Positions 1,270-64,000 of a stretch of DNA of 64,000 nt are shown here, piece by piece; within the stretch, counting starts at the first letter, position 1; each line of letters starts with the position of its first letter. This DNA is from Leuconostoc miyukkimchii (lineage in GTDB: Bacteria; Bacillota; Bacilli; Lactobacillales; Lactobacillaceae): assembly GCF_019656055.1 (NCBI RefSeq), contig NZ_BPKY01000001.1, forward strand, positions 372,001-436,000, read 5' to 3'. The notes beneath the pieces were generated by a model, which was not told the origin of the DNA, searched no databases, and worked only from the letters and a program-made list of their open reading frames with translations. Made by a program: the position numbers and the translations under genes.

Positions 1270-2028
1270 ATGAATGAAGTAATTCTTAAAGAAGGTGAGC
1301 GTATTGATGGGTTGCCTTCTCAAAATATTAATATTATCCAAAATCCAGATATGTTTTCATATTCACTGGATGCGATACTTTTAGCACATTTTGCTGGTGT
1401 GAAAGGTAAGGGACAGGGCCTGACAGTTGATTTAGGAGCTGGAACAGGCGCTGTAGGATTATTTTACGCGCCCAAAGTAGCGGGGCCTGTCACATTAGTT
1501 GAAATTCAGCCCGAATTAGCTGATATGGCAGTGCGGAGCATCGCCATGAATAACTTAGAAATGCGTGTGAATGTTTTACGTTCAGATATGAAAGCAATTT
1601 TTGATGACATTCGGCCGGGCTCGGTAGAAACGGTGTTGTCTAATCCACCTTATTTTCCATTACATGAAACAACTAAAACGAATCATGACGAGCATTATGA
1701 GCTTGCACGACATGAGCTAACAATTGATTTGCCAGGTTTGGCGCAAGTGGCTAATAAATTACTGAAAAACAATGGTAAATTTTATATGGTACATAGACCT
1801 GAACGACTGACTGATATTTTTTCTGCTTTCGCTGCACGAAAATTAATGATTAAGCGTATTCAATTTGTTTATGGAAAAGCGAATCGCGAGGCTAATATGG
1901 TACTTATCGAAGCAATCAAGTCAGGTCGTCCAGGTGGTGTTCGTGTGATGCCGCCAATTGTTGCCTATGAACAGTCTAACGAATACACAGCGCAGGTACA
2001 AGATATTTTGTATGGTCCCGTATGGTAA
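1270..2028 (+). CDS. tRNA1(Val) (adenine(37)-N6)-methyltransferase-like protein (TrmN6/YfiC family)
   Basis: A 252-residue Rossmann-fold SAM-dependent methyltransferase. Motif I reads VDLGAGTGAVGL (about residue 54) and the amino-methyltransferase motif IV is SNPPYF (about residue 123), which indicates N6-adenine or a similar amino group as target. The family acts on tRNA; the exact position modified is inferred from E. coli TrmN6. No strong ribosome binding site precedes the ATG at 1270. The gene overlaps the following GIY-YIG gene by 7 bp, a pairing often seen in Firmicutes (yabB-yazA), so the two are probably cotranscribed. Confidence 0.85.
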   Translation: MNEVILKEGERIDGLPSQNINIIQNPDMFSYSLDAILLAHFAGVKGKGQGLTVDLGAGTGAVGLFYAPKVAGPVTLVEIQPELADMAVRSIAMNNLEMRVNVLRSDMKAIFDDIRPGSVETVLSNPPYFPLHETTKTNHDEHYELARHELTIDLPGLAQVANKLLKNNGKFYMVHRPERLTDIFSAFAARKLMIKRIQFVYGKANREANMVLIEAIKSGRPGGVRVMPPIVAYEQSNEYTAQVQDILYGPVW

Positions 2029-2309
2029 CAACGAAACCTTATTTTTTTTATGTTTTATATACAGCTGATGGCTATTTTTATGCTGGGTTCACTGATAACG
2101 TGCAACGTCGATTTGAGACACATGCTGCACGTAAAGGTGCAAAGTTCACACGGGTTAAATCAAGACATCCGCTGCAATTAATTTATGAAGCACAATTTGA
2201 TTCAAAAAGTGAAGCACTACGTGCAGAAGCAGCGTTTAAAAAATTAACACGACAAAAAAAAGAACAATTTTTAAGTCAAAATAATGTTGATAAAAGAATT
2301 TGGCAATAG
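2022..2309 (+). CDS. GIY-YIG nuclease superfamily protein (YazA/YhbQ, UPF0213)
   Basis: A 95-residue single-domain GIY-YIG protein: FYVLYTADGYFYAGFTDN near the N-terminus holds the two tyrosine/glycine signatures (YVL and YAG), and the usual Arg follows in NVQRRFETH. The length fits UPF0213. The cellular role of the family is unclear; a DNA-repair nuclease role is only proposed. It overlaps the end of the upstream methyltransferase and is translationally coupled to it. Confidence 0.9.
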   Translation: MVTTKPYFFYVLYTADGYFYAGFTDNVQRRFETHAARKGAKFTRVKSRHPLQLIYEAQFDSKSEALRAEAAFKKLTRQKKEQFLSQNNVDKRIWQ

Positions 2310-2313
2310 TAAC

Positions 2314-2342
2314 TTGCAATATGTATGATAATCTCGTATAAT
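2314..2342 (+). promoter_or_regulatory. rpsB promoter
   Basis: TTGCAA, a 17 bp spacer, then TATAAT (2337-2342). This is near-consensus and one of the strongest promoters in the window, as expected for a ribosomal protein gene. It leaves a leader of about 105 nt before rpsB. Confidence 0.8.
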
Positions 2343-2348
2343 TATAGC

Positions 2349-2453
2349 TGTTGCAATTAGCAATAAATACACACGGCAAACGAGTTCACATAGGTGCAGA
2401 AATGTCATTGTGAATGTCGAATTTGTCGGCGGAAAAACCTAGGAGAACATATC
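2349..2453 (+). other. rpsB 5' leader, possibly structured
   Basis: About 105 nt between the expected transcription start and the rpsB ATG. It contains a hairpin-forming pair, TTCACA (2385-2390) with TGTGAA (2409-2414). S2 leaders bind S2 in some bacteria; I cannot match this one to a known motif. Confidence 0.3.
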
Positions 2454-3230
2454 ATGGCAGTTATTTCAATGAAAGAACTTCTCGAAGCAGGAGTACATTT
2501 CGGTCACCAAACACGTCGTTGGGACCCAAAGATGGATGAATATATCTTTACAGAACGTAATGGTATTCACATCATCGATTTACAAAAGACGGTAAAACTT
2601 GTTGATGAAGCCTATAACTTCATACGCAATGCTTCAACTGATGATGCTAACTTTTTGTTTGTTGGTACTAAAAAGCAAGCTTCAGATGCTATCGCTGAAG
2701 AAGCAACACGTGCTGGTCAATATTTCATCAACCACCGTTGGTTAGGTGGAACTTTGACTAACTGGAATACAATTAAGACACGTATTCAACGTTTAAAGGA
2801 TTTGGAAGCAATGGCCGAAGATGGCACATTCGAACAATTACCTAAAAAAGAAGTTGTTTTGTTAAACAAGCAACGCGAAAAGTTAAATAAGTTCTTGGGT
2901 GGTATCAAAGATATGCCTGGCTTGCCAGATGTATTGTTTGTTGTTGATCCTAAGAAGGAAGAAATCGCTGTTAAGGAAGCAAATATGTTGAACATTCCCG
3001 TTGTGGCTATGATCGATACAAATGCTAACCCTGAAGTAGTAGATGTTAAGATTCCTGCTAACGATGATGCTATCCGTGCTGTTCGTTTGATTACTGCTAA
3101 GATGGCAGATGCTATTATTGAAGGTCGTCAGGGTCAAGATTCAGCACCTGAAGATGCATTTGTAGCTGGTGATGAAAATACTGAATCAATTGAAGAAATT
3201 GCTAATATCGTTGAAGAAGGCAATAACTAA
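2454..3230 (+). CDS. rpsB: 30S ribosomal protein S2
   Basis: A 258-residue S2 protein, full length for Firmicutes. Recognisable blocks are [22 protein letters not shown] at the N-terminus, [11 protein letters not shown] in the middle and [14 protein letters not shown] near residue 190; an acidic tail follows. The start at 2454 is chosen because AGGAG lies at 2441-2445; upstream in-frame codons from 2394 belong to the leader. S2 assembles late on the small-subunit head. The order rpsB-tsf-pyrH-frr is the conserved bacterial arrangement, but here each of the first three genes has its own promoter. Confidence 0.98.
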
Positions 3231-3243
3231 TATTTAAGTAACG

Positions 3244-3290
3244 AATGCCGTTCCTGCAGACCTGTTTGGGATGCGGAATGGCATTTTTAT
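3244..3290 (+). terminator. Terminator after rpsB
   Basis: AATGCCGTTCC pairs with GGAATGGCATT (one G-U pair) around a 20-nt loop, followed by five T. It separates rpsB from tsf. Confidence 0.75.
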
Positions 3291-3313
3291 TTGCCCGAAA
3301 CATATAAAAAGCA

Positions 3314-3322
3314 TGTTATAAT
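3314..3322 (+). promoter_or_regulatory. Extended -10 promoter of tsf
   Basis: TGTTATAAT, a perfect extended -10, 33 bp upstream of the tsf start. Confidence 0.65.
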
Positions 3323-3354
3323 AAAATCATAAATATTTTTAGAGGAGCAATACA

Positions 3355-4230
3355 ATGGCAATTACTGCTGCACAAGTGAAAGAATTACGTGATAAGACGT
3401 CTGTTGGTATGATGGATGCAAAAAAAGCTTTGGTTGAATCTGATGGTGACTTGGATAAGGCTATCGACTTGCTTCGTGAAAAAGGCATGGCTAAGGCAGC
3501 GAAAAAGGGTGACCGTATCGCCGCTGAAGGTATGACTTATGTTGCTGTTAAGGGTAACAAGGCCGCTATTATTGAATTGAATTCAGAAACGGACTTCGTT
3601 GCTGGTAACGCGGAATTTAACGATTTATTAAAGGCCGTGGCAAATACAATTGTTGAATTTTCACCTGTAGATGTTGAAGCAGCATTAGCTTTAGAAGTTG
3701 GTGAAGGTCAAACATTGAACGACAAAATCATTGGTACAACACAAATTACTGGTGAAAAAATTACTTTGCGTCGTTTTACAGTTGTTGAAAAGTCAGATAC
3801 TGAAACTTTTGGTGCCTATTCTCATTTGGCTGGCTCAATTTCATCACTAGTTGTTATTGAAGGTGGTTCAGAAGAAGTTGCCAAAGATATTGCTATGCAT
3901 ATTGCCGCTATTGCACCACAATATGTTTCAGATAATGACGTACCAGCTGAAGTTGTTGCTAAAGAAAAAGCTGTTCAAAGTGCATCTGAAGACTTAGCTG
4001 GAAAGCCTGATAATATTAAAGAAAAGATGGTTGAAGGACGTATTAAGAAGTTCTTGGCAGAAATTTCATTATTAGATCAAGCTTTTGTTAAAAATAGTGA
4101 CCAAACAGTTGCGCAATTTGTTGCGTCAAATAATGGCTCTGTTAAATCATTTGTTCGCTACCAAGTGGGCGATGGTATTGAAAAGAAAGTAACTGATTTG
4201 GCTGAAGAAGTTGCTAAGCAACTCGGTTAA
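3355..4230 (+). CDS. tsf: Elongation factor Ts
   Basis: A 291-residue EF-Ts, the guanine-nucleotide exchange factor of EF-Tu. The N-terminal UBA-like module reads [19 protein letters not shown], and the core signature [15 protein letters not shown] follows near residue 80; the TDFVA residues intrude into EF-Tu. AGAGGAG precedes the ATG. The gene lies between its own extended -10 promoter and a strong terminator, so it can be expressed independently of rpsB and pyrH. Confidence 0.98.
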
Positions 4231-4235
4231 TGATG

Positions 4236-4270
4236 TAAAGTGTGTTATATGTGCATAACACACTTTTTTT
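4236..4270 (+). terminator. Terminator after tsf
   Basis: AAAGTGTGTTAT and ATAACACACTTT form a 12-bp stem around a short loop, followed by a T-run. Confidence 0.9.
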
Positions 4271-4282
4271 GCGGGATATTTT

Positions 4283-4291
4283 TGGTATAAT
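4283..4291 (+). promoter_or_regulatory. Extended -10 promoter of pyrH-frr
   Basis: TGGTATAAT, 26 bp upstream of the pyrH start and just downstream of the tsf terminator. Confidence 0.6.
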
Positions 4292-4317
4292 TGATTAGAT
4301 AGAAAATGAGGTAAATC

Positions 4318-5043
4318 ATGACTGAAATGAAGTACAAACGTGTTTTGATGAAACTTTCTGGTGAGGCACTGGCAGGCGACAAAGGTCAAGGCATAGATCT
4401 TGAAACAGTTTCTGAAATTGCGCAAGATTTAAAAGAGGTTCATGCTTTAGGAACACAAATTGCGATTGTTGTTGGTGGTGGTAATTTGTGGCGTGGTGAG
4501 CCTGCATCAAAGGTGGGTATGGAACGTTCACGTGCTGATTATACGGGTATGCTTGGTACAACAATGAACGCGTTAGTCTTACAAGATGCCTTAGAACGTG
4601 CTGGCGTTGATACACGAGTTCAAACAGCCATTACAATGCAACAAATTGCGGAACCATATATACGTGGTCGAGCAATTCGTCACCTTGAAAAAGGACGTAT
4701 TGTTATTTTTGCAGCAGGTACTGGTTCTCCTTATTTTTCAACAGATACGACAGCAGCTTTGCGGGCAAATGAAATCAACGCTGATGCCATTTTAATGGGT
4801 AAAAATGGTGTTGATGGTATTTATGATTCAGATCCGAACAAAAATGCTAATGCTGTCAAATTTGCTGAATTAACACATCTAGATATTTTGCAAAAGGGCT
4901 TAAAAGTGATGGATTCGACAGCGAGTTCACTTTCGATGGATAATAATATGCCACTCGTCGTATTTAACCTAAATACACCAGGTAATTTAAAACGTGTAAT
5001 ATTAGGTGAAAATATTGGTACAACGGTTACAGGAGGAAAATAA
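4318..5043 (+). CDS. pyrH: Uridylate kinase (UMP kinase)
   Basis: A 241-residue amino-acid-kinase-fold enzyme that phosphorylates UMP to UDP. Seen: KLSGEAL at the N-terminus (phosphate-binding Lys), the glycine-rich [27 protein letters not shown] (UMP/ATP site) and [12 protein letters not shown]. The length matches bacterial PyrH. Its TAA overlaps the ATG of frr by one base, so the two genes are translationally coupled. Confidence 0.98.
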
Positions 5044-5588
5044 TGGCTTTTGATTTAACAGATGCTAAGACACGTATGCAAGGCGCTCAAGATGCATTAG
5101 TGCGCGAACTAGGAAGTATTCGTACAGGACGTGCGAATCCACATATTTTAGATAGAATTGAAGTCGAATATTATGGTGCGATGACACCATTGAATCAAGT
5201 GGCTTCGATATCTGTTCCAGAAGCACGTATTTTGTTGATTACACCATTTGATAAGTCGGTTTTGGAAGAAATTGTGCGAGCAATCAACATTTCAGACTTA
5301 GGATTAAATCCAGCTTCTGATGGCAATATTGTACGATTAGCAATTCCGCAAATGACTGAAGAAGGTCGTAAAGATTTGGCTAAGCAAGTTAAAGCCGAAG
5401 CCGAGAAAGCGAAAGTTGCAATACGTAATGTACGTCGAGATGCAATGGATGCTGTCAAGAAAGATAAGGAATTACCTGAAGATGACGCACGTAATGCTGA
5501 AAATGATGTTCAAAAGTTAACAGATGAAAACATCAAAGGTATTGATGCAATTGCAGCAGATAAGGAAAAAGAATTGCTAACGATTTGA
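5043..5588 (+). CDS. frr: Ribosome recycling factor
   Basis: A 181-residue RRF, slightly shorter than the usual 185. The conserved SIRTGRANP block (about residue 28) begins the three-helix domain, followed by PLNQVASISVPEARILLITPFDKS and a long basic and acidic helical C-terminal half. With EF-G it splits post-termination ribosomes. Start codon overlap with pyrH and the AGGAGG inside the pyrH end (about 5032) give tight coupling. Confidence 0.98.
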   Translation: MAFDLTDAKTRMQGAQDALVRELGSIRTGRANPHILDRIEVEYYGAMTPLNQVASISVPEARILLITPFDKSVLEEIVRAINISDLGLNPASDGNIVRLAIPQMTEEGRKDLAKQVKAEAEKAKVAIRNVRRDAMDAVKKDKELPEDDARNAENDVQKLTDENIKGIDAIAADKEKELLTI

Positions 5589-5654
5589 TTATTGTACTTG
5601 AAATATGTTAAGTGTAATATGCTGAAATTGTGAGTCGTAAATTTTGTGAAATAC

Positions 5655-5683
5655 TTGACCTTTTAACAGTTGCAGTGCATAAT
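5655..5683 (+). promoter_or_regulatory. Promoter of the glycine T-box transcript
   Basis: TTGACC, a 17 bp spacer, then CATAAT (5678-5683). Transcription would start near 5690, immediately upstream of the T-box. Confidence 0.65.
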
Positions 5684-5690
5684 AATATAT

Positions 5691-5845
5691 ATTAGTTTTG
5701 CTAACTATGAAGTCACGTGGCGGTGATGGAGTTTGTAAACAAATCGAGTGTCGGGAAAACATTCTCGGAAATCAGGTGGAACCGCGCGTAAGCGTCCTGA
5801 TGTCAAGTATTTTGGCATTGATGGACTGTGTACGCGCGGTTTTTG
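5691..5845 (+). ncRNA. Compact T-box riboswitch, probably glycine-specific
   Basis: The T-box core AGGTGGAACCGCG (5774-5786) sits in an antiterminator where ATCAGG (5771-5776) pairs with CCTGAT (5796-5801). A competing terminator pairs 5780-5790 with 5831-5841 over 11 bp and is followed by a T-run. Stem III is visible as CGAG...CTCG (about 5744-5767). Only about 45 nt remain for Stem I: a lower stem 5697-5706/5730-5739 and a hairpin GTCAC(5712-5716)-GTGGCG-GTGAT(5723-5727) whose loop contains GGC, a glycine codon. Uncharged tRNA-Gly would favour readthrough. The T-box and terminator are clear; the specifier assignment is inferred from the GGC and from glyQS downstream. Confidence 0.8.
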
Positions 5846-5859
5846 TGTCGGAAAGGAAA

Positions 5860-6267
5860 ATGGATGTGACAGACTTTGAACATTTTTTTAATGATAATAC
5901 AGTACCCTCTGAACATTTAGAACGTTTGCGTTTAACCAGAACGTTAATTCATAATATTTATCCTAATATTGATGAACAAGTATCGTATGCTATGCCTGCT
6001 TTTTATCCAATTGAAGGAAAAAAGGCAACACAAGTACTAATGATGATAAAGGCTAACAAACATTGGTTAGGCATTTATGCCTTGCCGGATTTTAATGAAG
6101 AATATACTGATTTTTTGTTGAAAAGAAATCTAAAGATGGGTAAGGGTTCAATTCAAATACCCTATGATTTTGATGCAGAACAGTTAGATATATTATTACG
6201 AAAAATCATTTTGTATAATTTAAAACGTTTAAACTTTGCTGTTCCGATAGAAATTGATGAAAGCTAA
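5860..6267 (+). CDS. DUF1801 family protein
   Basis: A 135-residue soluble protein resembling the DUF1801 (YdhG-like) family, with the typical QVSYAMPAFYPIEGKKATQVLMMIKANKHWLGIYALP block, GKGSIQIPYD and a final helix. Family function is uncertain; a role in iron handling has been proposed for some members. The start at 5860 is used because GAAAGGAAA directly precedes it; an in-frame extension to 5698 would run through the T-box and its terminator and is not credible. The gene lies between the T-box terminator and glyQ, which puts it under T-box control. Confidence 0.75.
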   Translation: MDVTDFEHFFNDNTVPSEHLERLRLTRTLIHNIYPNIDEQVSYAMPAFYPIEGKKATQVLMMIKANKHWLGIYALPDFNEEYTDFLLKRNLKMGKGSIQIPYDFDAEQLDILLRKIILYNLKRLNFAVPIEIDES

Positions 6268-18367: not shown

Positions 18368-19711
18368 ATGGAAACCAATCAAATAACTGAAACCATTAAT
18401 ATGGTTTCAGAAGAACATTTGGATATTCGGACTGTTACAATGGGTATTTCATTGCTTGACACAATAGCTGGAACACCACAAGAAACTGCAAAAAATATTT
18501 ACAAAAAGATTACAACTTATGCAAAAGATTTAGTTAAAACTGCAAAACAAATTGAGCGAGAATTTGGCATTCCAATTACGAATAAACGTATTAGTGTCAC
18601 ACCAATTGCTCTGATTGCGGGGAAAGCAACACCAGATGAAATGCTTTATTATGCGCATGCTTTAGATGATGCTGCAAAAGCAGTTGGCGTAGACTTTATT
18701 GGGGGTTATTCAGCTCTTGTACAAAAAGGATTTGCTAACGGTGACTTGGCATTAATAGAGTCATTACCACGTGTTTTGACAGAAACAGACCTTGTCATGT
18801 CAAGTATTAATATTGGCTCAACCAAGGCAGGTATTAACTTAGACGCTATTAAATTAATGGGCGAAACCATTAAAAAAATTACAGATAAATCAGATACTGC
18901 TAACGCAAAATTAGTTGTATTTGCTAATGCTGTGGAAGATAATCCTTTTATGGCCGGTGCTTTTCATGGGGTCAGTGAAGCAGACGTTGTGATCAATGTT
19001 GGTGTCTCTGGACCTGGTGTTGTTAAACGTGCGCTTGAAAAAGTAAAAGGCGAACCAATTCAAAATGTCGCAGAAACTGTTAAGAAGACAGCGTTCAAAA
19101 TTACGCGTGTCGGGCAAATGGTTGGCGCGTTAGCTGCAGAACGATTAGGTGTTGAATTTGGTATTGTTGATTTGAGCTTAGCACCAACACCGGCACGTGG
19201 AGATTCAGTTGCTGAGGTGTTAGAAGAAATTGGTCTTGAGATGGTCGGGGCACATGGCACAACAGCTGCATTGATGTTACTCAATGATGCCGTTAAAAAG
19301 GGTGGTGTTATGGCTTCTCAACGTGTTGGCGGTTTGTCAGGTGCCTTTATACCGGTTTCTGAAGATGCTGGTATGATTGATGCTGTTAAGGCCGGTGTAC
19401 TGTCATTGGCAAAACTTGAAGCAATGACATCTGTTTGTTCAGTTGGATTAGACATGATTGCCATTCCAGGTGAAACACCAGCGACAACAATTTCTGCAAT
19501 GATTGCTGATGAAGCAGCAATTGGTGTTCAAAACAATAAGACAACCGCAGTACGTATTTTGCCCACTAATGGCACCAAGGTGGGCGATTTGGTTGATTAT
19601 GGCGGTCTTTTGGGTACAGCACCGGTTATGCCAGTTGTTGAGAAATCTAGTGCTGATTTTATCAATCGTGGTGGACATATTCCGGCGCCTATTCATTCAT
19701 TTAAAAATTAA
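18368..19711 (+). CDS. UPF0210 family protein (PFL family, DUF711)
   Basis: A 447-residue protein of the UPF0210 family, structurally related to glycyl-radical-fold proteins but of unproven function. Seen: [17 protein letters not shown] at the N-terminus, [18 protein letters not shown], the [12 protein letters not shown] stretch and [19 protein letters not shown]. The length is normal. It follows the ACT-domain gene, which is thought to regulate it, and ends at a very strong bidirectional terminator. Confidence 0.93.
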
Positions 19712-55967: not shown

Positions 55968-56357
55968 ATGAATAAAATAGCATTGACAAATATTTTGATT
56001 AATAGTAGCGCTGTTTTCTTTGGTGGTGCACTCGGTGGTTTAATCAGATTTTCATTTACGCAAATACCTGTCATAGGTGCTTCAACTATTGTTATAATGG
56101 TAATCAATATATTGGGCTCTTTTTCACTGGCTTTTTTTGCTGAAAAATATAGTAGTGTGAGTGCAAAAGCAGTGGTAATTAAGTCATTTATTGGGACAGG
56201 TATTATTGGTGGTTTTACTACGTTCAGCACGATGATTTTGCAAACAGCCAATTTAGCTAAAAAGAGTTTCGTATTATCTTTACTTTATCTATTTACCAGT
56301 CTCGTATTGAGTCTATTGTTAGTCAGGGCCGGTGGAAAGATGGGTTCAACAAAATGA
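55968..56357 (+). CDS. crcB1: Fluoride efflux channel subunit CrcB (first of a pair)
   Basis: A 129-residue Fluc-type protein with four membrane helices. The signatures GGALGGLIRFSF, MVINILGSFSLAFF and GGFTTFSTMIL are the fluoride-channel motifs. The start at 55968 gives normal family length; the ATG at 55917 would add 17 residues and cannot be excluded. It overlaps crcB2 by 4 bp. Paired genes of this kind usually form a heterodimer with antiparallel subunits. I see no fluoride riboswitch upstream. Confidence 0.92.
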   Translation: MNKIALTNILINSSAVFFGGALGGLIRFSFTQIPVIGASTIVIMVINILGSFSLAFFAEKYSSVSAKAVVIKSFIGTGIIGGFTTFSTMILQTANLAKKSFVLSLLYLFTSLVLSLLLVRAGGKMGSTK

Positions 56358-56719
56358 CAATACATGGCTTTTATTTATACGCTTTGATTGCGTTGGCTGG
56401 TGGTTTAGGTTCAGTTATTAGATATTTAATGACAATTTTTATGCCTGCAAATACTCAATATTTGACAGGTGTTTTCTTTGTGAATATTATTGGCGCTTTT
56501 ATGATGGGAATCATAATTCATACACAGTTTTCTACTAATATGAAACTAGTTTTAGCAAGCGGTTTTATTGGTGGTTTAACCACATTTAGCACAATGATGA
56601 TGCAAGGAAATCAACAAGAAAAAAGATATCAAAAGGCTATTTATTTCGTTTTACAAGTTATTTTTGGACTCATAATGTTTTATTTAGGCGTTTTATTATC
56701 TCATTTGTTAAAACTATAA
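56354..56719 (+). CDS. crcB2: Fluoride efflux channel subunit CrcB (second of a pair)
   Basis: A 121-residue four-helix Fluc protein with AGGLGSVIRYLMTIF, FVNIIGAFMMGI and SGFIGGLTTFSTMM. The overlap with crcB1 indicates coupled translation and a heterodimeric channel exporting fluoride. The Arg/Asn/Phe-Ser-Thr motif set is intact in both copies. Confidence 0.93.
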   Translation: MTIHGFYLYALIALAGGLGSVIRYLMTIFMPANTQYLTGVFFVNIIGAFMMGIIIHTQFSTNMKLVLASGFIGGLTTFSTMMMQGNQQEKRYQKAIYFVLQVIFGLIMFYLGVLLSHLLKL

Positions 56720-56762
56720 AAATCATTATGATGGAATCTGAAAGGGTAAGGAGATTGATTGT

Positions 56763-57887
56763 ATGACCAAAATTTATGATTTAATTGTTATAGGTACAGG
56801 ATCAGTTGGTTCTAGTACTGGATATTATGCAGCTAAAAGAGGTTTGTCTGTTTTAGAAATTGACGCTGGAACGCCCCCACATAGTGAGGGGTCACACCAT
56901 GGTGAAACGCGAATAATTCGTCATGCTCATGGCGAGAGATCATCTTATGTGCCACTCGTATTACGTGCGCAAGAATTATGGCATGATTTAAAATCAGAAA
57001 CCGATGTTGATTTATTTCACGAAACCGGTGTGCTTAATATAGCGCCAAAACAGTCTGATTTTTTAGGTAATATCATATCTTCTGCGCAAAAATATGATTT
57101 ACCGATAAATATTTATGACGCTGTCTCAGCTAACAAAAAATGGCCACAGTTCACGTTACCTGAACATTTCAAAGCTATTTTAGAAAAAAATTCTGGGTAT
57201 TTGAAATCAGAATTAGCAATAGATACTTATATTAAAGAAGCAAAAAGATTAGGTGTGGATGAGCAATTTAATACAAAAGTCATCTCAGTTAATAATATTG
57301 ATAATGATTTAGTTTCTGTCGTAACAAATGCTGGAACATTTATAGGAAAATCAGCTGTTATAACAGTTGGTACTTGGGTAAAAGACCTTATACCAAATAT
57401 ACCCATCCAACCAGTTAGAAAGGTTGTGTCGTGGTTTGAAGCACCGGAACATTTTTCTGAAAATGCACATTTTCCAGCTTTTACCATTCAATTAGATGAC
57501 AAAGTGCAGTATTATGGTTTTCCGGCTAACAACGGCTTAATTAAAATTGGTCGGCATCAAGGTGGTCAAAAAATAAAAACCCGAGAAGAACGTCTGAGTT
57601 TTGGTGCACTAACAGAGGATAAAATCGAAATACTACCTCTATTTGATAACATTTTGACAACTGTTGGAGAATTAAATCATGGTGTGGCATGTACCTATGA
57701 CTTGTCTCCGGATGAGGACTTTATTATTGACGATTTACCAGGAAAGAGGAATATCCAGTTCGTCACTGGACTGAGTGGTCATGGATTCAAGTTTGCTAGC
57801 GTGCTAGGAGAAATATTGGTGGCAAAATCCTTAAAAGAAACAATTGATTTTGATTTGTCGCCGTTTTTATTATCACGTTTCCAATAG
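56763..57887 (+). CDS. FAD-dependent amine oxidase (sarcosine oxidase / N-methyl-L-tryptophan oxidase family, SolA-like)
   Basis: A 374-residue flavoprotein. The dinucleotide-binding motif is DLIVIGTGSVGSSTGYYAAKRG (about residues 6-27), followed by the family block EGSHHGETRIIRHAHGE. A Cys in GVACTYDLSPDEDFIIDDLP (about residue 309) corresponds to the covalent-FAD Cys of monomeric sarcosine oxidase. It would oxidise an N-methyl amino acid; the substrate is unknown. It is 43 bp after crcB2, with AAGGAG upstream. Confidence 0.88.
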   Translation: MTKIYDLIVIGTGSVGSSTGYYAAKRGLSVLEIDAGTPPHSEGSHHGETRIIRHAHGERSSYVPLVLRAQELWHDLKSETDVDLFHETGVLNIAPKQSDFLGNIISSAQKYDLPINIYDAVSANKKWPQFTLPEHFKAILEKNSGYLKSELAIDTYIKEAKRLGVDEQFNTKVISVNNIDNDLVSVVTNAGTFIGKSAVITVGTWVKDLIPNIPIQPVRKVVSWFEAPEHFSENAHFPAFTIQLDDKVQYYGFPANNGLIKIGRHQGGQKIKTREERLSFGALTEDKIEILPLFDNILTTVGELNHGVACTYDLSPDEDFIIDDLPGKRNIQFVTGLSGHGFKFASVLGEILVAKSLKETIDFDLSPFLLSRFQ

Positions 57888-57906
57888 AATAGGAAAGAAG
57901 TTTATC

Positions 57907-58518
57907 ATGTTAGATGATTATAAAAAGAAAAGGCAAAAATTCTATATAAAAGTTAAGAAGCAATCTAAATGGGCTATAGTGATTGGTCTATTTATCGGAC
58001 TTGTAGATTACTGGTTTTTATTTTGGAGTGATTTATCAAATTTTTTAATACTATTTATGACTGTAATGTATGGTTTGGTATCAATAATTTATATTTTTGC
58101 GTTAATAAGATACATCAATAATTTGAGACTTCTGAAGCAAACGGTTAACATTGAGAATGTGGCATCTACTGATATTAATTTTCTAAAAAAGATACTTGAT
58201 TCAAATCAATCAAATGCTAAAACAGCGTCTTCTTTGTCAGATTACAGAATATTATCAATATATGAAACAGAATTTGATCTACTAATCGAGTTCAACATAC
58301 ATAGACATCATGATAATTGGCCAAAATATAAACCTTACCTTGCAATTTTTAAAATAAACAATGATGAAATACGTAATTTAATTACCTTAAGTAAAAATAA
58401 TGGAAAATTAGCACAAGCAAAATATATTCATGAAGGCTTAACTCAGTTAGACTATCGATATATGTGGCAGCAATTGCTATACATAGATGCTACTACCCGA
58501 AATAATAATGAAATTTGA
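57907..58518 (+). CDS. Unknown two-helix membrane protein
   Basis: A 203-residue protein I do not recognise. A very basic N-terminus (about 1-22) precedes two membrane helices (about 24-42 and 46-68), and a cytoplasmic-looking domain of about 130 residues follows, rich in Asn, Lys and Ile. The ATG at 57907 follows GGAAAGAAG; an in-frame extension into the oxidase gene is unlikely. The next gene begins 15 bp downstream, so they form a pair. Confidence 0.7.
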   Translation: MLDDYKKKRQKFYIKVKKQSKWAIVIGLFIGLVDYWFLFWSDLSNFLILFMTVMYGLVSIIYIFALIRYINNLRLLKQTVNIENVASTDINFLKKILDSNQSNAKTASSLSDYRILSIYETEFDLLIEFNIHRHHDNWPKYKPYLAIFKINNDEIRNLITLSKNNGKLAQAKYIHEGLTQLDYRYMWQQLLYIDATTRNNNEI

Positions 58519-58533
58519 AGGATTTTACATGAC

Positions 58534-59205
58534 ATGAGTCGATATAATAAACAGAAGTTATGCCTCGTAGTAAGTTTTTTGATTCTGAGCCTCTTGATAA
58601 CAATTGCTATCTACGTTCCTATGCAATTTGTAAAAGCAGCGCATTCACCCAAGCAGGTCGTATTAAAAGAATTGGGTTCTAAATATATTACTGGTAAAGT
58701 GATTAACAATTACTATTTTGGTGGTGATGATATCGAAGATAATATGGCAAAATGGCATATTAATCCGAATAAGGCTATTTTTGGAGAAAAACAGTATTAT
58801 ATTAAGGTATTAACAGATGATACTACTTTTAACCACTTAAATGAGTTTGTTCAACCAGGCGATGTATTGGATGCTAAACTAAGTCAAAAACATAACAACA
58901 ATGAGTTGAAGGTGGAAAATACAGCTGTTTTTTATGGCAAAGACACGTCTTCAAATATAATTAGGACGTTATACCTTTTAAGGTTTTCTACCAATAGAGC
59001 ATTAGAGGACAAAGAAGAGGTGAAAATAAAAGTAAAAAGACCAATGGTAGTTGTGCCAGATAAATTTCTGAAAAATGATGAAGTGCGGGTGAAATCTGGG
59101 AAACAATGGATAATAAAGTACGTAAAGGTATCTTATCATATCAAAAATAAGAATTATATTTCAACAAATTACCTTAAAAATGGCGATATAATAAAGAAAT
59201 ACTAG
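58534..59205 (+). CDS. Unknown membrane-anchored extracellular protein
   Basis: A 223-residue protein I do not recognise. A basic N-terminus and one membrane helix (about residues 10-32) precede an external domain of about 190 residues rich in Lys, Asn and Asp, with predicted beta strands and no Cys beyond the N-terminus. GAAGGA lies about 15 bp before the ATG. It follows the two-helix protein gene at 15 bp. It ends next to the AT-rich gap. Confidence 0.65.
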   Translation: MSRYNKQKLCLVVSFLILSLLITIAIYVPMQFVKAAHSPKQVVLKELGSKYITGKVINNYYFGGDDIEDNMAKWHINPNKAIFGEKQYYIKVLTDDTTFNHLNEFVQPGDVLDAKLSQKHNNNELKVENTAVFYGKDTSSNIIRTLYLLRFSTNRALEDKEEVKIKVKRPMVVVPDKFLKNDEVRVKSGKQWIIKYVKVSYHIKNKNYISTNYLKNGDIIKKY

Positions 59206-59240
59206 TTCAATTATGTATGTGGATAAAGTTTTTTGATGAT

Positions 59241-59519
59241 TTAATGTCCAAAAGAATTAAAACTATAGAGTATGCCAAAAAACCAATTACTACGATGTAA
59301 TTTTTGTAGTAGTAAAAATCCATCTTTTGATAGCTGGCTATTGAGTGATAATTTTTGTAGTGAATGAGTAATACTTGTTAATTCCTGATATTGTGATACT
59401 TTTGGGTTGCTAAGTTTATTAGCTGTATCAGTGATTAATCTTTTTTCATTTTCAGTCAGATCAGGATGGTTTTCTAAAAAGTTTAATATATATTTTCGTT
59501 TATTAGATTGAAACCTAAA
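59241..59519 (-). pseudogene. 5'-truncated minus-strand gene, possibly bacteriocin-immunity-like
   Basis: An open frame of 92 codons ends in TAA at 59241 but has no ATG, GTG or TTG anywhere; the frame closes upstream at TAA (59520-59522). The peptide looks like real protein: helical and charged, with LNFLENHPDLTENEKRLI, YQELTSITHSLQKLSL and SKDGFLLLQKLHRSN. Size and helical pattern recall class IIa bacteriocin immunity proteins, but this is a weak resemblance. A frameshift or deletion near 59520 probably removed the start. Confidence 0.45.
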
Positions 59520-59599
59520 TTATTTCACCAATTTTTGGAATTATTTTTGAATGAGCAATGGATTATTCCTTTGGTTAGCTGCTATATATTGTCTTTATA

Positions 59600-59623
59600 A
59601 TGATTAATGATATCATTAATCAT
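59600..59623. repeat. Perfect 24-bp palindrome
   Basis: Positions 59600-59623 are fully self-complementary (half-site ATGATTAATGAT). It lies in the gene-poor gap upstream of the decayed minus-strand gene and might be an operator or a remnant of a mobile element end. Confidence 0.6.
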
Positions 59624-59646
59624 ATTGTGTGAACAAGTTTTTTCTA

Positions 59647-59723
59647 TGCGGTATTTTCATGTATTGCTGATATGGCAGACTGCAGAAGAAAAAGAAAAAG
59701 AAAAATAAAAATGAAAAACCGCA
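59647..59723. repeat. Inverted repeat flanking a purine tract
   Basis: TGCGGTATTTTCAT (59647-59660) is inverted as ATGAAAAACCGCA (59711-59723), one base shorter. Between them, about 59693-59710, lies a tract of only A and G (AGAAAA repeats). Its role is unknown. Confidence 0.55.
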
Positions 59724-60169
59724 GATATTTTTAGTGTTGTTTTTAGTAGATAGAGCAGTTTCTTATCTTAATTTTAAATTTCATAATATATAGCATTAAA
59801 ATAATTGTTATCGTTAGACATTTTTTATATTGAAACGAGTTGGTCCAACATTTATATAATCGTGATCGATTATTAATAAACCGAACAAAAGCAACTCTAT
59901 TTATTGATCCCTGTGTAATAATTATTATTGTGTTTATTCTATATTTCTATTCTTTTTTGTTTTTAAATATGTTAATATTATATGAAGATATACACTTAAA
60001 TATGTATATTTTATATCTTAATAAAAATAATTATGATTCAAAATTATCTTGTTTCATATTGATTATTATTTATCGATAAATGTACAGTCCGGAATAAAAA
60101 AAATGATGAATCTTACTTAAATATTCTGATACTTATTGTATGTAGCGTTCACCATACAGGGAGAGAGTG

Positions 60170-60895
60170 ATGAAAATCAAATTAGTTACTTATTTAATAA
60201 GCGTGGGAATCATTATTTTAACTCTAATAGGAACATGTAGATCAGTCTCAGCGGACAGTTGGGAATATGGTCCGTTAAACGATAGAATTGCGTCCAGTAA
60301 TGCTGGTGGTACTAAATATGATACCTATCGACAAGTTGGATTAAGTGTAGATGATAAAAATGTATATATATATGTAAGTATGGATCCCTACAAATATGCA
60401 AGTGATGATCCAAATTTTAATACAGGCGATAATGGAATCCAACTTACTGGCTATGTTCTGAATGCCGCGAATCAAACAATATATATCGACAGTCATTCTT
60501 ATGATTTTTATCAATTACAGTATAGTTCTCAAAATGGAACTAAATCATTCCCACTTGATATATATAATTCAACTAAAGGTACAAATGTTCATATTGAAAA
60601 TAGCGTGACAGTTGATCACTTAGTACGTGATAACGGTAACCGTGTAAATAATATTATGAGGTTAATAATACCTATTAGTGCTTTAAATATTGGCGAAGTT
60701 CCTGCGAAGTCAACAATAATTTTAAGTAATAGTAATATATGGCAAGGACAAGTACCTATTACATTAATGGGAGCGTCAACAGGTCCTTGGCTGTTAGTAG
60801 TTATTGGAATTGTAATTGCGGCAATTGCTTATTTTAAATTGCAACATACGGAAGCATTGAAAATAAATCAAAGGCAGCATCAGTATGCTTATTAA
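60170..60895 (+). CDS. Secreted protein with Firmicu-CTERM-type C-terminal sorting signal (probable XrtG substrate)
   Basis: A 241-residue protein. A signal peptide (about 1-28, cleavage after SVSA) precedes an external domain of about 170 residues with YRQVGLSVDDKNVYIYVSMDPY and no known enzymatic motif. The tail has the three-part sorting structure: GASTGPW at 201-207, a membrane helix at about 208-222, then a basic, polar end. This corresponds to the Firmicu-CTERM signal associated with exosortase G. GGGAG (60159-60163) favours the ATG at 60170 over GTG at 60167. It overlaps the exosortase gene by 11 bp. Confidence 0.8.
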   Translation: MKIKLVTYLISVGIIILTLIGTCRSVSADSWEYGPLNDRIASSNAGGTKYDTYRQVGLSVDDKNVYIYVSMDPYKYASDDPNFNTGDNGIQLTGYVLNAANQTIYIDSHSYDFYQLQYSSQNGTKSFPLDIYNSTKGTNVHIENSVTVDHLVRDNGNRVNNIMRLIIPISALNIGEVPAKSTIILSNSNIWQGQVPITLMGASTGPWLLVVIGIVIAAIAYFKLQHTEALKINQRQHQYAY

Positions 60896-61463
60896 AACAA
60901 TTATAATTTTTTCACTAATTATTTGGGTATATGGCTTATCAGTTTTAAAACGAGCAAAAACTGATGCTTTTTATTTTTTATTTGGAAGTATTGGGCTATT
61001 TATAATTTTAATCATGGTAAGCAAACCTTATGGTGTCTGGTTATTTTCAAGTATCGTGACGTGGGGTGTGGGATTGATTGGCAAATTAACTGGATTGTTT
61101 ACAACGCTATATAGTTCACATATTATTCAAGTAATTGCGAATCACCGCACTAGTATTTTATTAGTCGACTATGAATGTTCAGGTATTATTGAAACTACAG
61201 CTTTTTGGGGATTAATAGCATTTTATCCAGTCTACAACGGGCAAAAGCGATTCATATTGGGAATAATTGGAATGTTTTGGATTTTCATGGCAAACGTAAT
61301 TAGATTATCTGTTGTTGCTGTTATAGTGTACTACTTTGGAGATGGGTCTTTTTATTTAGCACATTCAATTATTGGACGATTAATATTTTACATATTGGCA
61401 ATTATTCTATATTACTTAGTATTCACTAAGGGACAATTAGTCAATAGGTTATTAATCCATTAA
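60885..61463 (+). CDS. xrtG: Exosortase family protein XrtG
   Basis: A 192-residue membrane protein with about six helices. The exosortase triad is visible: Cys98 in VDYECSGIIE, Arg140 in MANVIRLSVVA and His160 in LAHSIIGRL. In Gram-negative relatives these enzymes process PEP-CTERM proteins; XrtG is the Gram-positive form. It probably recognises the GASTGP tail of the protein encoded just upstream, whose stop it overlaps. It is 10 bp ahead of a GT2 gene. Confidence 0.9.
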   Translation: MLIKTIIIFSLIIWVYGLSVLKRAKTDAFYFLFGSIGLFIILIMVSKPYGVWLFSSIVTWGVGLIGKLTGLFTTLYSSHIIQVIANHRTSILLVDYECSGIIETTAFWGLIAFYPVYNGQKRFILGIIGMFWIFMANVIRLSVVAVIVYYFGDGSFYLAHSIIGRLIFYILAIILYYLVFTKGQLVNRLLIH

Positions 61464-61472
61464 GGAGGACCT

Positions 61473-62819
61473 ATGTCTTTTTATTTTGATCAATTAATTT
61501 ATCAAATTGGCTTTTGGTTCACATGGCTGTTAATTCCGATTATTGTCGAAATTCTACCTGCTACAACTTATTTTTTTAAATTAATAAAAATAGCCCATCT
61601 GACTGATGAATTGAAACAACCACTTAAATTACCTATGATTTCGATAATTCTACCAGTTTATAATTCAGCAGATACCTTGTATACTTGTATCGAATCAATC
61701 TATAAATCTACATATTCAAAAGAGTTGATTCAAATAATTGTTGTTAATAATCACAGTACCGATAACAGTTTTCAAGAATACAAGAGAGCTCAAGAACAAT
61801 TTAATGAATTACGTATTCAATGGATGGATACTGATCAAGGTAAAGCACAGGCTTTAAACGCTGCAATATACAGTAGTATTGGTCAATACGTAGTTAATCT
61901 CGACACAGATGGTATCTTACATACAGAGGCACTAAATAATTTAATGATGTATTTTGAAAATAATCCTAATATCGATGCGGCCACTGGAACAATTTTAACA
62001 CAAAAAAAATTAATTGATGCTACGAAAAAAAATAGTCTTCGGATTTTGCAATCAAATGAATATTTTGAGTATGCACAGTCATTTCTAGCTGGACGTAGTA
62101 TGGAAAGTCAGAATAATCAATTATTTACTATGTCTGGTGCTTTTTCAGCATTTAGAAGAAATGCACTGATTAATACATTTTTGTACAATGTGAATACTGT
62201 TGGTGAAGATACTGATATGACTTTTCAATTGCGTGATAGATTAGGCAAAAAAGTTGGTTTTTGTTTTAATGCTATTTTTTACGTTGAACCAATTTCTGGG
62301 TTATCAGAACTTTATCTCCAAAGGCAACGTTGGCAACGAGGTGAAATAGAGGTGGTTCAAAAATTTATGAAGAATAAATTGAACGTGCGTCATTTCTTTA
62401 AAGAGTTTATGATTAGTCGATTGATGATAGATCACACGTTTATGTTTCCAAAGTTAATATGGGTTGTTGGACTATTTGTATTATTGTTTTTTGGATACTC
62501 ACCAATAGTTATTGGATTATCAATCATTTTTATGTATCTACTATATGTTGTCTACGCCACAATGAATTTTGTAAATGCTGGTCTGTTATTACAAAAATTT
62601 GTCCTAGAAAAAAATTACCTTAATCATAAATGGTGGGTTGTTTTTACAATGCCATTGTATAATATGTTATGTTCACTAATTAGATTTATTGGCATAATCA
62701 ACACAATCACGCAAAAAGCGAGTTGGCAGACGCTCAATTTTAAAGATGAGATAAAAGAAATTAAGCAAGTGATTACTAATGATTATCATAAGTTTAAAGA
62801 GGATAAAGATAATGGTTAA
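61473..62819 (+). CDS. Membrane glycosyltransferase family 2, exosortase G-associated
   Basis: A 448-residue GT2 enzyme. One N-terminal helix (about 10-30) precedes the GT-A domain: ISIILPVYNSADTLYTCI, the VVNNHSTDNS strand, LDTDG (metal-binding DXD, about 150), GEDTDMTFQLRDR and QRQRWQRGE (about 285), typical of processive or lipid-linked GT2s. Three to four C-terminal helices follow. The product is unknown; the exosortase context suggests glycan attached to or carried with the sorted protein. AAGGAGG precedes the ATG. It overlaps the next gene by 8 bp. Confidence 0.9.
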   Translation: MSFYFDQLIYQIGFWFTWLLIPIIVEILPATTYFFKLIKIAHLTDELKQPLKLPMISIILPVYNSADTLYTCIESIYKSTYSKELIQIIVVNNHSTDNSFQEYKRAQEQFNELRIQWMDTDQGKAQALNAAIYSSIGQYVVNLDTDGILHTEALNNLMMYFENNPNIDAATGTILTQKKLIDATKKNSLRILQSNEYFEYAQSFLAGRSMESQNNQLFTMSGAFSAFRRNALINTFLYNVNTVGEDTDMTFQLRDRLGKKVGFCFNAIFYVEPISGLSELYLQRQRWQRGEIEVVQKFMKNKLNVRHFFKEFMISRLMIDHTFMFPKLIWVVGLFVLLFFGYSPIVIGLSIIFMYLLYVVYATMNFVNAGLLLQKFVLEKNYLNHKWWVVFTMPLYNMLCSLIRFIGIINTITQKASWQTLNFKDEIKEIKQVITNDYHKFKEDKDNG

Positions 62820-63183
62820 AGTATACAATTACAGATTAAGAACTTTTATCAATGCGAGCCATGCCATAAGGTGGAGTCAAGGAGAGGGCGAAGAGCATCC
62901 GCATACGTGGGAATTAATTTTAGAAATAGAGCCAGAGAGTTATCCAATTAATTTGAAATTTGAGGATATTGAAACGGTTATTAGTGGTTCATTAATTAAA
63001 TTTTCTGGTCAGAAAATAAATAACATTGCACCATTTAATACAATTAATCCTACGTTAGAAAATTTTTCCGACCATCTGTTTGATATCTTACAAATAGCGC
63101 TTAAAAAAATTAATTGTCAATTGGTCAAATTAAGTGTTGGAGAATCTCCTATGCGCTTTTATACTGTTAGTGCAGATCGGTAG
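62812..63183 (+). CDS. 6-pyruvoyl-tetrahydropterin synthase-like protein, exosortase G-associated
   Basis: A 123-residue T-fold protein. The zinc-type histidines are present: His17 in FINASHAIR, and His29 and His31 in EEHPHTWELIL, as in PTPS/QueD. A catalytic Cys equivalent is not evident: the one Cys (in INCQLVKL) is far C-terminal. ESPMRFYTV parallels the late family strand. No pterin or queuosine genes are nearby, so the substrate is unknown. The ATG at 62812 gives the family length. Confidence 0.85.
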   Translation: MVKVYNYRLRTFINASHAIRWSQGEGEEHPHTWELILEIEPESYPINLKFEDIETVISGSLIKFSGQKINNIAPFNTINPTLENFSDHLFDILQIALKKINCQLVKLSVGESPMRFYTVSADR

Positions 63184-63193
63184 TATAAGAAAT

Positions 63194-64000
63194 ATGCAAA
63201 AAATTTACCATAAAATCAGTGAGAAAATATTAAAAATAACGAATGCTTTTTTTGGTGTCTTTATTTTTTTAGTTTTCTATTTTGCGTTAACCTCTCCAAA
63301 TTTAACATTAGGAGATAATGTTAATAAACAGACAATTGGTGACAGGACTACTTGGGTAGTAGTTTTATTTTTAGTGACTCTTATTTTGGTAACATTAATT
63401 ACCTTGGTTAATAGAAAAATTAGAGTTATCTCTAGGGTCCTATTTATTGATTATGGGCTGATAACTGGCAGTATTTTATTAACACTCTCTTTCATTCTAC
63501 AACTGATTGTTATCTTCCATACACATCCTGCAATCGGATTTGATCCCGGGGCAATTCATGATGCGTTACTTGATCCTAATCGAGAGGATTTAAAAAGTTA
63601 TTTCAGTTACAATACGAATAATTTACCGCTATTGTTGGTTCAACGTGCAATAAGTGGGGGTTTGAAAAATTCAAGTTGGCTAACGTTTGATTTAATAAAC
63701 TCATTATTGTTACTAGTAACAGTACTTTTGAATCTGTTGACCGTGTACCTACTCGATAAAAAAAGTTTAAAAGTAACATTATATATTCATGCTCTTTGGA
63801 TTGTTGTGTTTCCAATGGTACTAGTACCGTATTCTGATGTTGCGATATTGCCAATGGTTAGTGCATTATTAGCACTTTATGCATTAACAAGTAAAACGAA
63901 AAACTACTTTGTAATATTATTATCCGCAATTGGTATTGGAATAGTAGTCACCTGTATTTATTTCATCAAACCTTCTGCAATAATTCCTATTATTGCTATT
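63194..64000 (+). CDS. Multi-pass membrane protein, GT-C glycosyltransferase-like, exosortase G-associated (cut by window edge)
   Basis: An open frame from ATG at 63194 to the window end (269 codons, no stop). Membrane helices are visible at about 16-36, 55-75, 85-107, 155-180, 195-225 and beyond. The loop after helix 3 reads HTHPAIGFDPGAIHDALLDP, with an Asp as in GT-C catalytic loops, followed by YNTNNLPLLLVQRAI. This fits the integral membrane protein family (TIGR03766) that accompanies XrtG. It starts 10 bp after the PTPS-like gene. It probably transfers a sugar from a lipid carrier; this is inference. Confidence 0.8.
   Translation, partial: MQKIYHKISEKILKITNAFFGVFIFLVFYFALTSPNLTLGDNVNKQTIGDRTTWVVVLFLVTLILVTLITLVNRKIRVISRVLFIDYGLITGSILLTLSFILQLIVIFHTHPAIGFDPGAIHDALLDPNREDLKSYFSYNTNNLPLLLVQRAISGGLKNSSWLTFDLINSLLLLVTVLLNLLTVYLLDKKSLKVTLYIHALWIVVFPMVLVPYSDVAILPMVSALLALYALTSKTKNYFVILLSAIGIGIVVTCIYFIKPSAIIPIIAI

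Follow-up and report, generated by a model that had tools for sequence, protein, structure and literature searches.

An exosortase-G gene set in Leuconostoc miyukkimchii and its genomic association with cyclic di-GMP enzymes

Introduction

Exosortases of the PEP-CTERM systems each serve many substrates, and in Streptococcus mutans the Pgf system glycosylates proteins by means of a pair of glycosyltransferases, one of family 2 (GT2) and one with the glycosyltransferase C fold (GT-C). The Gram-positive version, exosortase G (XrtG) with its Firmicu-CTERM substrate, was reportedly described from comparative genomics by Haft in 2012. Here, we report on an XrtG gene set at the end of a 64,000-nucleotide stretch of DNA from Leuconostoc miyukkimchii (hereafter the window; contig NZ_BPKY01000001.1, positions 372,001 to 436,000, or G000:C1:372001-436000 in a 1.91 Mb genome) and on the association of XrtG, across genomes, with the GGDEF and EAL genes of cyclic dimeric guanosine monophosphate (c-di-GMP) signalling.

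An initial annotation of the window held that the reaction and product of the Gram-positive version are not established, and in the literature that we searched none was found. As far as the accessible parts of the two papers go, the family names of the XrtG system figure as a table entry in PMC8951740, and a complete XrtG set is among the transcripts over-expressed in L. plantarum strains by which interferon responses are activated (PMC12854382). In L. acidophilus, a GT2 operon adjoins GGDEF and EAL genes, and raised DgcA leads to more exopolysaccharide (EPS), according to the available sections of PMC6123363 (He 2018); the word exosortase is absent from these sections, as it is from those available of a sigma-54 study that covers L. 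plantarum and cyclases (PMC3162934). Within the literature searched, mostly without subscription papers, no link of XrtG or of exosortases to c-di-GMP or to a diguanylate cyclase was found. The c-di-GMP association of XrtG is also a new reading with respect to the initial annotation, which missed the cyclase gene lying outside the window.

Results

The locus is a genuine XrtG system, of a kind that is known and named by NCBI models and functionally unexplained. The initial annotation had proposed a five-gene set here and the profiles by which to check it (TIGR03110, TIGR03111, TIGR03112, TIGR03766, and TIGR04145), and this proposal was borne out by an NCBIfam hmmscan, in which the five genes are intact, lie at the positions given in Table 1, and each yield a significant match above the curated cut-off. 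The CTERM and XrtG genes share 11 bp, 9 bp separate the XrtG and GT2 genes, the GT2 gene shares 8 bp with the gene of the 6-pyruvoyl tetrahydropterin synthase (PTPS)-like protein, given a start of the latter at 62812, and the gap between the PTPS-like and TIGR03766 genes is 10 bp, given a start of the latter at 63194. The TIGR03766 gene exits the window and is full-length in the genome (positions 5134-6732 of L002, the extract of this locus from its own genome); extension past position 64000, which had likewise been suggested, completes it and, about 300 bp further downstream on the same strand, reaches a GGDEF gene with an intact signature (GGEEL). No terminator-like site was found between the TIGR03766 and GGDEF genes, in a scan that performs at chance level (2 sites in L002 1100-8500, 2.1 in shuffles); one of the two sites lies after the GGDEF gene, but on the minus strand. 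The closest named relatives at this locus are Leuconostoc citreum, L. holzapfelii, Oenococcus oeni, and L. fallax. XrtG is present in one copy in the genome, and its proposed Cys/Arg/His triad holds, with Cys98, Arg140, and His160 invariant in 22 of 22 aligned XrtG proteins, that of the window among them. We found XrtG in 27 of 151 genomes of the family (Lactobacillaceae, judging by named matches) and in 13 of 398 genomes of a phylum sample, 9 of these being above the cut-off.

Across the 151 family genomes, GGDEF domains are present in 25 of the 27 that have XrtG versus 43 of the 124 that lack it (25/27 versus 37/124 with only those matches that exceed the cut-off), and EAL domains in 25/27 versus 31/124, none of these counts being corrected for phylogeny, which enters only through the comparison inside the genus and the state changes on the tree. 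Among the 19 genomes of the window's genus, GGDEF occurs in 7 of 7 genomes with XrtG versus 1 of 12 without (P 1.6e-4). The genes are also close to each other: 8 of the 27 genomes have a GGDEF or EAL gene no more than 5 kb from XrtG, against 0.66 expected from the numbers of such genes, and 9 have one no more than 10 kb away, against 1.30 expected, these expectations being slightly low, as they were computed among the matches listed, and the match in G507 being a degenerate GGDEF of 30 bits. A further set of 81 loci, made up of the best 80 of 207 confirmed XrtG loci (named) and that of the window, was searched with home-made GGDEF and EAL models of one seed each, which degenerate domains may escape; 18 of these loci have GGDEF or EAL at a distance of up to 5 kb from XrtG and 23 at up to 8 kb, and the same is true of 15 and 20, respectively, of the 64 loci with more than 5 kb of sequence on both sides. 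These counts leave out a GGDEF domain in L119 that reaches only E 0.021 in Pfam. The arrangement varies; EAL and GGDEF genes lie between TIGR03766 and CTERM in Enterococcus, a GGDEF/EAL gene directly precedes the XrtG set in a Streptococcaceae metagenome-assembled genome (MAG), a degenerate GGDEF is found between GT2 and PTPS in Clostridium, and in Ligilactobacillus apodemi and Pediococcus the set is followed by GGDEF/EAL genes. On a tree of 78 of the 81 loci, made by a quick method that carried a long-branch warning (L062, L095, and L097, with no usable GT2 frame, were left out), the 18 linked rows require 12 state changes, which may reflect repeated gain or repeated loss.

A c-di-GMP riboswitch was considered as a direct link and rejected. 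Only one of the 25 sources scanned (24 places, as L009 and L132 overlap) was positive, namely the C. ljungdahlii locus L122. Here, two c-di-GMP-II riboswitches flank the XrtG set (3312-3395 and 18598-18681), the first of which has a terminator-like platform and is followed by a chemotaxis-receptor-like gene just upstream of the set. The glycan genes come next, across a gap of about 90 bp in which no terminator was detected; this riboswitch was not counted as proof of a link. The search for c-di-GMP-I riboswitches gave no match in the 151 family genomes, the control being also without a match anywhere, and c-di-GMP-II riboswitches were not searched genome-wide.

Asp, DxD, Glu-Asp, and QxxRW form the residue set of processive GT2 synthases. 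The corresponding residues of the GT2 protein (D144, D146, E245-D246, and Q283xxRW287) do not vary among the aligned sequences (29 of 29), and by these motifs the protein appears most like processive synthases. Two specific identities were rejected. PgaC/IcaA, the synthase of poly-N-acetylglucosamine (PNAG), is the next-best NCBIfam family, with 128 bits against an equivalog cut-off of 422.3; for the cellulose synthase BcsA, the score to the CelA model is 25.9 bits against a cut-off of 699.1, and the C-terminal PilZ domain is missing, no PilZ match having been found in the GT2 protein or elsewhere in its genome. The BcsA structure aligns to residues 18-360, with higher scores being reached by other GT2 enzymes over shorter stretches. 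The TIGR03766 protein, which has no Pfam match, was modelled with AlphaFold2 at a mean predicted local distance difference test score (pLDDT) of 88.7. The model matches ArnT (5f15) with Z 21.7 and a root mean square deviation of 3.9 over 309 aligned residues, and the first 44 rows, all with Z above 10, were classed by us from entry titles as GT-C enzymes or GT-C-like subunits, the next row, which is not GT-C, having Z 5.8. The protein is thus predicted to have the GT-C fold, which sharpens its earlier description as GT-C-like.

The putative substrate shows, by alignment and model, an N-terminal signal, a beta ectodomain, a GASTGP-type motif, a transmembrane helix, and a basic tail. It is the one Firmicu-CTERM protein that a search of the genome recovered, and a profile of the tail by itself finds the same protein alone (E 7.3e-16; next match E 8.7). 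A Firmicu-CTERM match is present in 27 of the 27 family genomes with XrtG, 26 being above the cut-off and G501 just short of it (47.7 versus 50 bits), and in only one of the 124 without XrtG (G544, E 7.9e-4, below the cut-off). The initial annotation had deduced one dedicated surface glycoprotein; the single substrate and the linked glycosyltransferases stand, and the glycoprotein remains putative. With the GT-C fold of the TIGR03766 protein and the processive-synthase signature of the GT2 protein, a polymer is no less probable than a glycan attached to a single protein. The ectodomain has no Pfam name, and a PDB profile search with it gave a best E of only 0.066. In the structure model (pLDDT 81.8), it is predicted to be a beta domain, whose five best matches (Z 6.4-7.6) are a putative carbohydrate-binding protein, an ethylbenzene dehydrogenase subunit, and three entries of carbohydrate-binding module family 9 (CBM9). 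The best Foldseek match is also a CBM9, a weak one (E 0.013), and the Pfam matches listed for 33 family members do not include CBM9.

In PTPS and QueD, zinc is held by three histidines, an acidic residue anchors the base, and the catalytic Cys lies between the zinc histidines; in T-fold proteins, it is an acidic residue that holds pterin and guanine-like rings. The fourth gene product has a PDB profile match to PTPS/QueD. We aligned 75 of 78 matches, comprising those of 100-180 amino acids and seven fused domains, and found the three zinc-type His columns in 75/75 and Glu or Asp before a conserved proline in 74/75, whereas a Cys between His28 and His40 occurs in 0/75 and the column that faces a Cys of the PTPS structure 2g64 in the PDB alignment is Trp in 56/75. 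The lack of the catalytic Cys led us to reject an active 6-pyruvoyl tetrahydropterin synthase or QueD, though the three histidines and the acidic residue are kept, and because these are conserved while the Cys is gone, the protein reads as a ligand binder that lost catalysis. In Clostridia, the PTPS domain is fused to a PF10131 membrane protein (Pfam-confirmed in L122, L130, L131, L133, and L134), and five more frames of about 1000 residues, which were not Pfam-scanned, have a PTPS match near their start (L094, L109, L113, L114, and L119). PF10131 is placed in the GT-C clan in the part of PMC7801869 that is available. In L109 and L128, the PTPS domain is preceded by a part that contains two hydrophobic stretches and matches no family above cut-off, likely a membrane sensor by its make-up; in the Clostridium loci L094 and L122, the same place is taken by a membrane protein with a GGDEF domain that lacks the signature. 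L133 encodes, on the minus strand (2013-5915), a single 1300-residue protein composed of PTPS, PF10131, and a CTERM homologue with its tail, the last part being 31% identical (E 3e-34) to the CTERM-like protein that L131 encodes. Here, the exosortase tag appears to sit on the GT-C-clan enzyme itself. Proteins of similar size are found in L129 and L134.

Several other observations were made on these families. In four genomes of the phylum sample (L005, L006, L008, and L009), the catalytic Cys of XrtG-like proteins is replaced by Asn (IENSG), with Arg and His kept; these exosortases may be non-catalytic or act differently. The order EAL-GGDEF-XrtG-GT2-PTPS-TIGR03766-CTERM was found on one strand of a contig that is labelled as an archaeon MAG, Candidatus Methanovirga australis (L123, JAISTD010000016.1, 3832-10800), suggestive of horizontal transfer or misbinning. 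In the window's genus, the GGDEF-EAL pair lies beside a 657-residue GT2-PilZ gene in L142 and L143 versus a pair without that gene in L138 and L139. Upstream of the operon, positions 57844-59205 of the window encode two adjoining proteins of 224 and 223 amino acids, for which a Pfam scan gave no match above the cut-off.

Table 1. Genes of the XrtG locus and the adjoining diguanylate cyclase gene, in window coordinates
Feature	Position	Strand	Family match
Firmicu-CTERM substrate, 241 amino acids	60170..60895	+	TIGR04145, 104.4 bits (cut-off 50)
Exosortase XrtG, 192 amino acids, C98/R140/H160	60885..61463	+	TIGR03110, 216.3 bits (cut-off 102.75)
Membrane GT2 glycosyltransferase, 448 amino acids, processive-type by motif	61473..62819	+	TIGR03111, 596.1 bits (cut-off 363.95)
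PTPS-like T-fold protein, 123 amino acids	62812..63183	+	TIGR03112, 107 bits (cut-off 69.35); PF01242
TIGR03766 membrane glycosyltransferase, predicted GT-C	Open reading frame 63134..64000, likely start 63194, to ~64732 beyond the window	+	TIGR03766, 629.7 bits for the whole gene (cut-off 500)
GGDEF diguanylate cyclase	~65034-66170, outside the window (L002 7034-8170)	+	TIGR00254, 111.7 bits (cut-off 37.4)

Discussion

The explanation that we favor, to which we give slightly better than an even chance, is that the XrtG module acts as a c-di-GMP-responsive surface-glycan device that anchors one protein. The GT2 protein (TIGR03111) would, from its motif, polymerize a sugar at the membrane, and the TIGR03766 protein, with its predicted GT-C fold, would work on the outside, where it would extend the glycan or modify the substrate with sugars taken from a polyprenyl-phosphate donor. 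The Firmicu-CTERM protein would be secreted and may bind or carry the glycan, a role at which its CBM9-like model weakly hints. Exosortase chemistry suggests that XrtG would cut this protein at the GASTGP-type motif and anchor it in the envelope, the acceptor of the transfer being presumably a lipid or a glycan. The output would be set by c-di-GMP, as suggested by the association observed across genomes, and here partly via the adjacent diguanylate cyclase; the direction of this control, like each reaction above and the receptor, is what we infer. Lastly, the residues and fusions of the PTPS-like protein are consistent with a former pterin enzyme that now binds a ligand and regulates the GT-C enzyme as one of its subunits.

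Several findings weigh against this explanation. No GGDEF or EAL lies within 8 kb of XrtG in 58 of the 81 loci, 17 of the 81 having 5 kb of sequence or less on a side. The same holds, with the same models, for 9 of 9 phylum-sampled loci (one of them only 12 kb long), among which GGDEF is found only in L128, little over 8 kb from XrtG, and EAL in 0/9; TIGR03766 is found in 0/9 as well, and the CTERM model matches only L128, with a CTERM-like protein in L131 at 19.4 bits. Two of the 27 family genomes with XrtG are without both GGDEF and EAL, namely G407 (matched to Lactobacillus selangorensis, L097) and G542 (O. oeni, L046). No c-di-GMP riboswitch was found in or near the operon in a scan of window positions 56000-64000. 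The PTPS match is missing in 12 of the 81 loci, including that of L. plantarum EGD-AQ4 (L062 and L080 end at a contig edge), which argues that the PTPS-like protein is not essential everywhere. For the substrate model, an archaellum filament (Z 6.2) and a DUF4426 protein (Z 5.8) tie with the CBM9 rows (rank 50 has Z 4.7), and because such unrelated folds score alike, the apparent CBM9-likeness of the ectodomain is only a lead. Six of the 27 genomes with XrtG encode a PilZ protein, another possible target of c-di-GMP; G451 and G556, of the window's genus, have the order GGDEF-EAL-657-residue frame with GT2 and PilZ matches; and G557, a genome of the genus without XrtG, retains a GGDEF-EAL pair.

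The many loci without a nearby GGDEF or EAL gene, the nine of the phylum sample included, are what would be expected if the XrtG system glycosylated and anchored one adhesin by Pgf-like O-glycosylation without c-di-GMP control, the cyclase being a chance or unrelated neighbor. The GT2 protein would then make a lipid-linked sugar, which the GT-C protein would move to the substrate. It is in keeping with such a scheme that the GT-C structure matches include protein O-mannosyltransferases and oligosaccharyltransferases and that C. ljungdahlii has an extra GT2 adjoining its XrtG set with 236 bits to PgfS, below the cut-off of 500. On the other hand, QxxRW, unusual for lipid-linked sugar synthases, is kept in the whole GT2 alignment, and an absence of c-di-GMP control sits poorly with the presence and proximity statistics, the within-genus pattern, and the cyclase or EAL genes found in or beside the set in several lineages. 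We therefore regard this alternative as rather unlikely, while giving it the most room among those considered here.

It could also be that the c-di-GMP enzymes serve cellulose synthase or other targets, and that XrtG co-occurs with them since both are found in genomes rich in surface functions. Of the 151 family genomes, 13 have a PilZ match, the six with XrtG among them, and the 15 matches listed are all in frames of 652-685 residues; because the cyclase of G451 and G556 adjoins a GT2-PilZ frame, part of the co-occurrence of XrtG and c-di-GMP genes may reflect cellulose, and the GGDEF-EAL pair without XrtG in G557 fits this account too. In G557 and G553, the pair sits in the same kind of place without a GT2-PilZ frame. 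What makes this account distinctly unlikely is that PilZ is absent in 21 of the 27 genomes with XrtG, 19 of which, including the window's own, have GGDEF, that the second GGDEF-EAL pair of the window's genome sits amid genes read as housekeeping, and that eight genomes have their c-di-GMP gene within 5 kb of XrtG where less than one was expected. That the XrtG set of this strain is a relic, decaying or already inactive, is very improbable, given that its five genes are intact and above cut-off with the XrtG triad and GT2 motif residues kept, even if the substrate frame of O. oeni has an internal stop and the PTPS and TIGR03766 frames of G509 (L144) are broken up, through decay or assembly errors.

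The c-di-GMP-responsive surface-glycan device can be taken one step further, to a proposal that we consider improbable: the PTPS-like protein might be a new class of nucleotide second-messenger receptor, which, having lost pterin catalysis and kept the metal site and the acidic residue, would read c-di-GMP (or a guanine nucleotide) and gate the GT-C glycosyltransferase, its fusion partner in Clostridia. If true, it would add a fold to the c-di-GMP receptors and explain how the signal is read in lactic acid bacteria devoid of PilZ, and XrtG would be the main c-di-GMP output of those that have cyclases but no PilZ. XrtG has long been without a known reaction, product, or trigger, and the c-di-GMP reading is testable. 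The association provides a handle on the system, as a cyclase could be used to switch it on in laboratory strains of food grade and the processed protein and the glycan could then be sought.

In comparison with described systems, the locus resembles those of the PEP-CTERM exosortases and of the archaeosortase ArtA in its Cys/Arg/His membrane protease, its tripartite C-terminal tag, and its nearby glycan genes, features covered in part by the available text of PMC11980579. It differs from the Gram-negative exosortase/EPS systems in having a single dedicated substrate and a Gram-positive envelope. The GT2 protein shares with BcsA and PgaC/IcaA a GT2 core with QxxRW and membrane helices, but has no PilZ and remains below the cut-offs of both. 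In the gts operon of L. acidophilus, a membrane GT2 that the accessible part of PMC6123363 likens to BcsA and PgaC is linked to the GGDEF and EAL genes DgcA, PdeA, and PdeB. The pairing of a GT2 with a GT-C protein is common to this locus and to Pgf of Streptococcus mutans, whereas Pgf has no exosortase. With the XrtG/Firmicu-CTERM system as defined in NCBIfam, the locus has in common the same five components and one substrate in the genome, to which it adds a diguanylate cyclase gene after the set.

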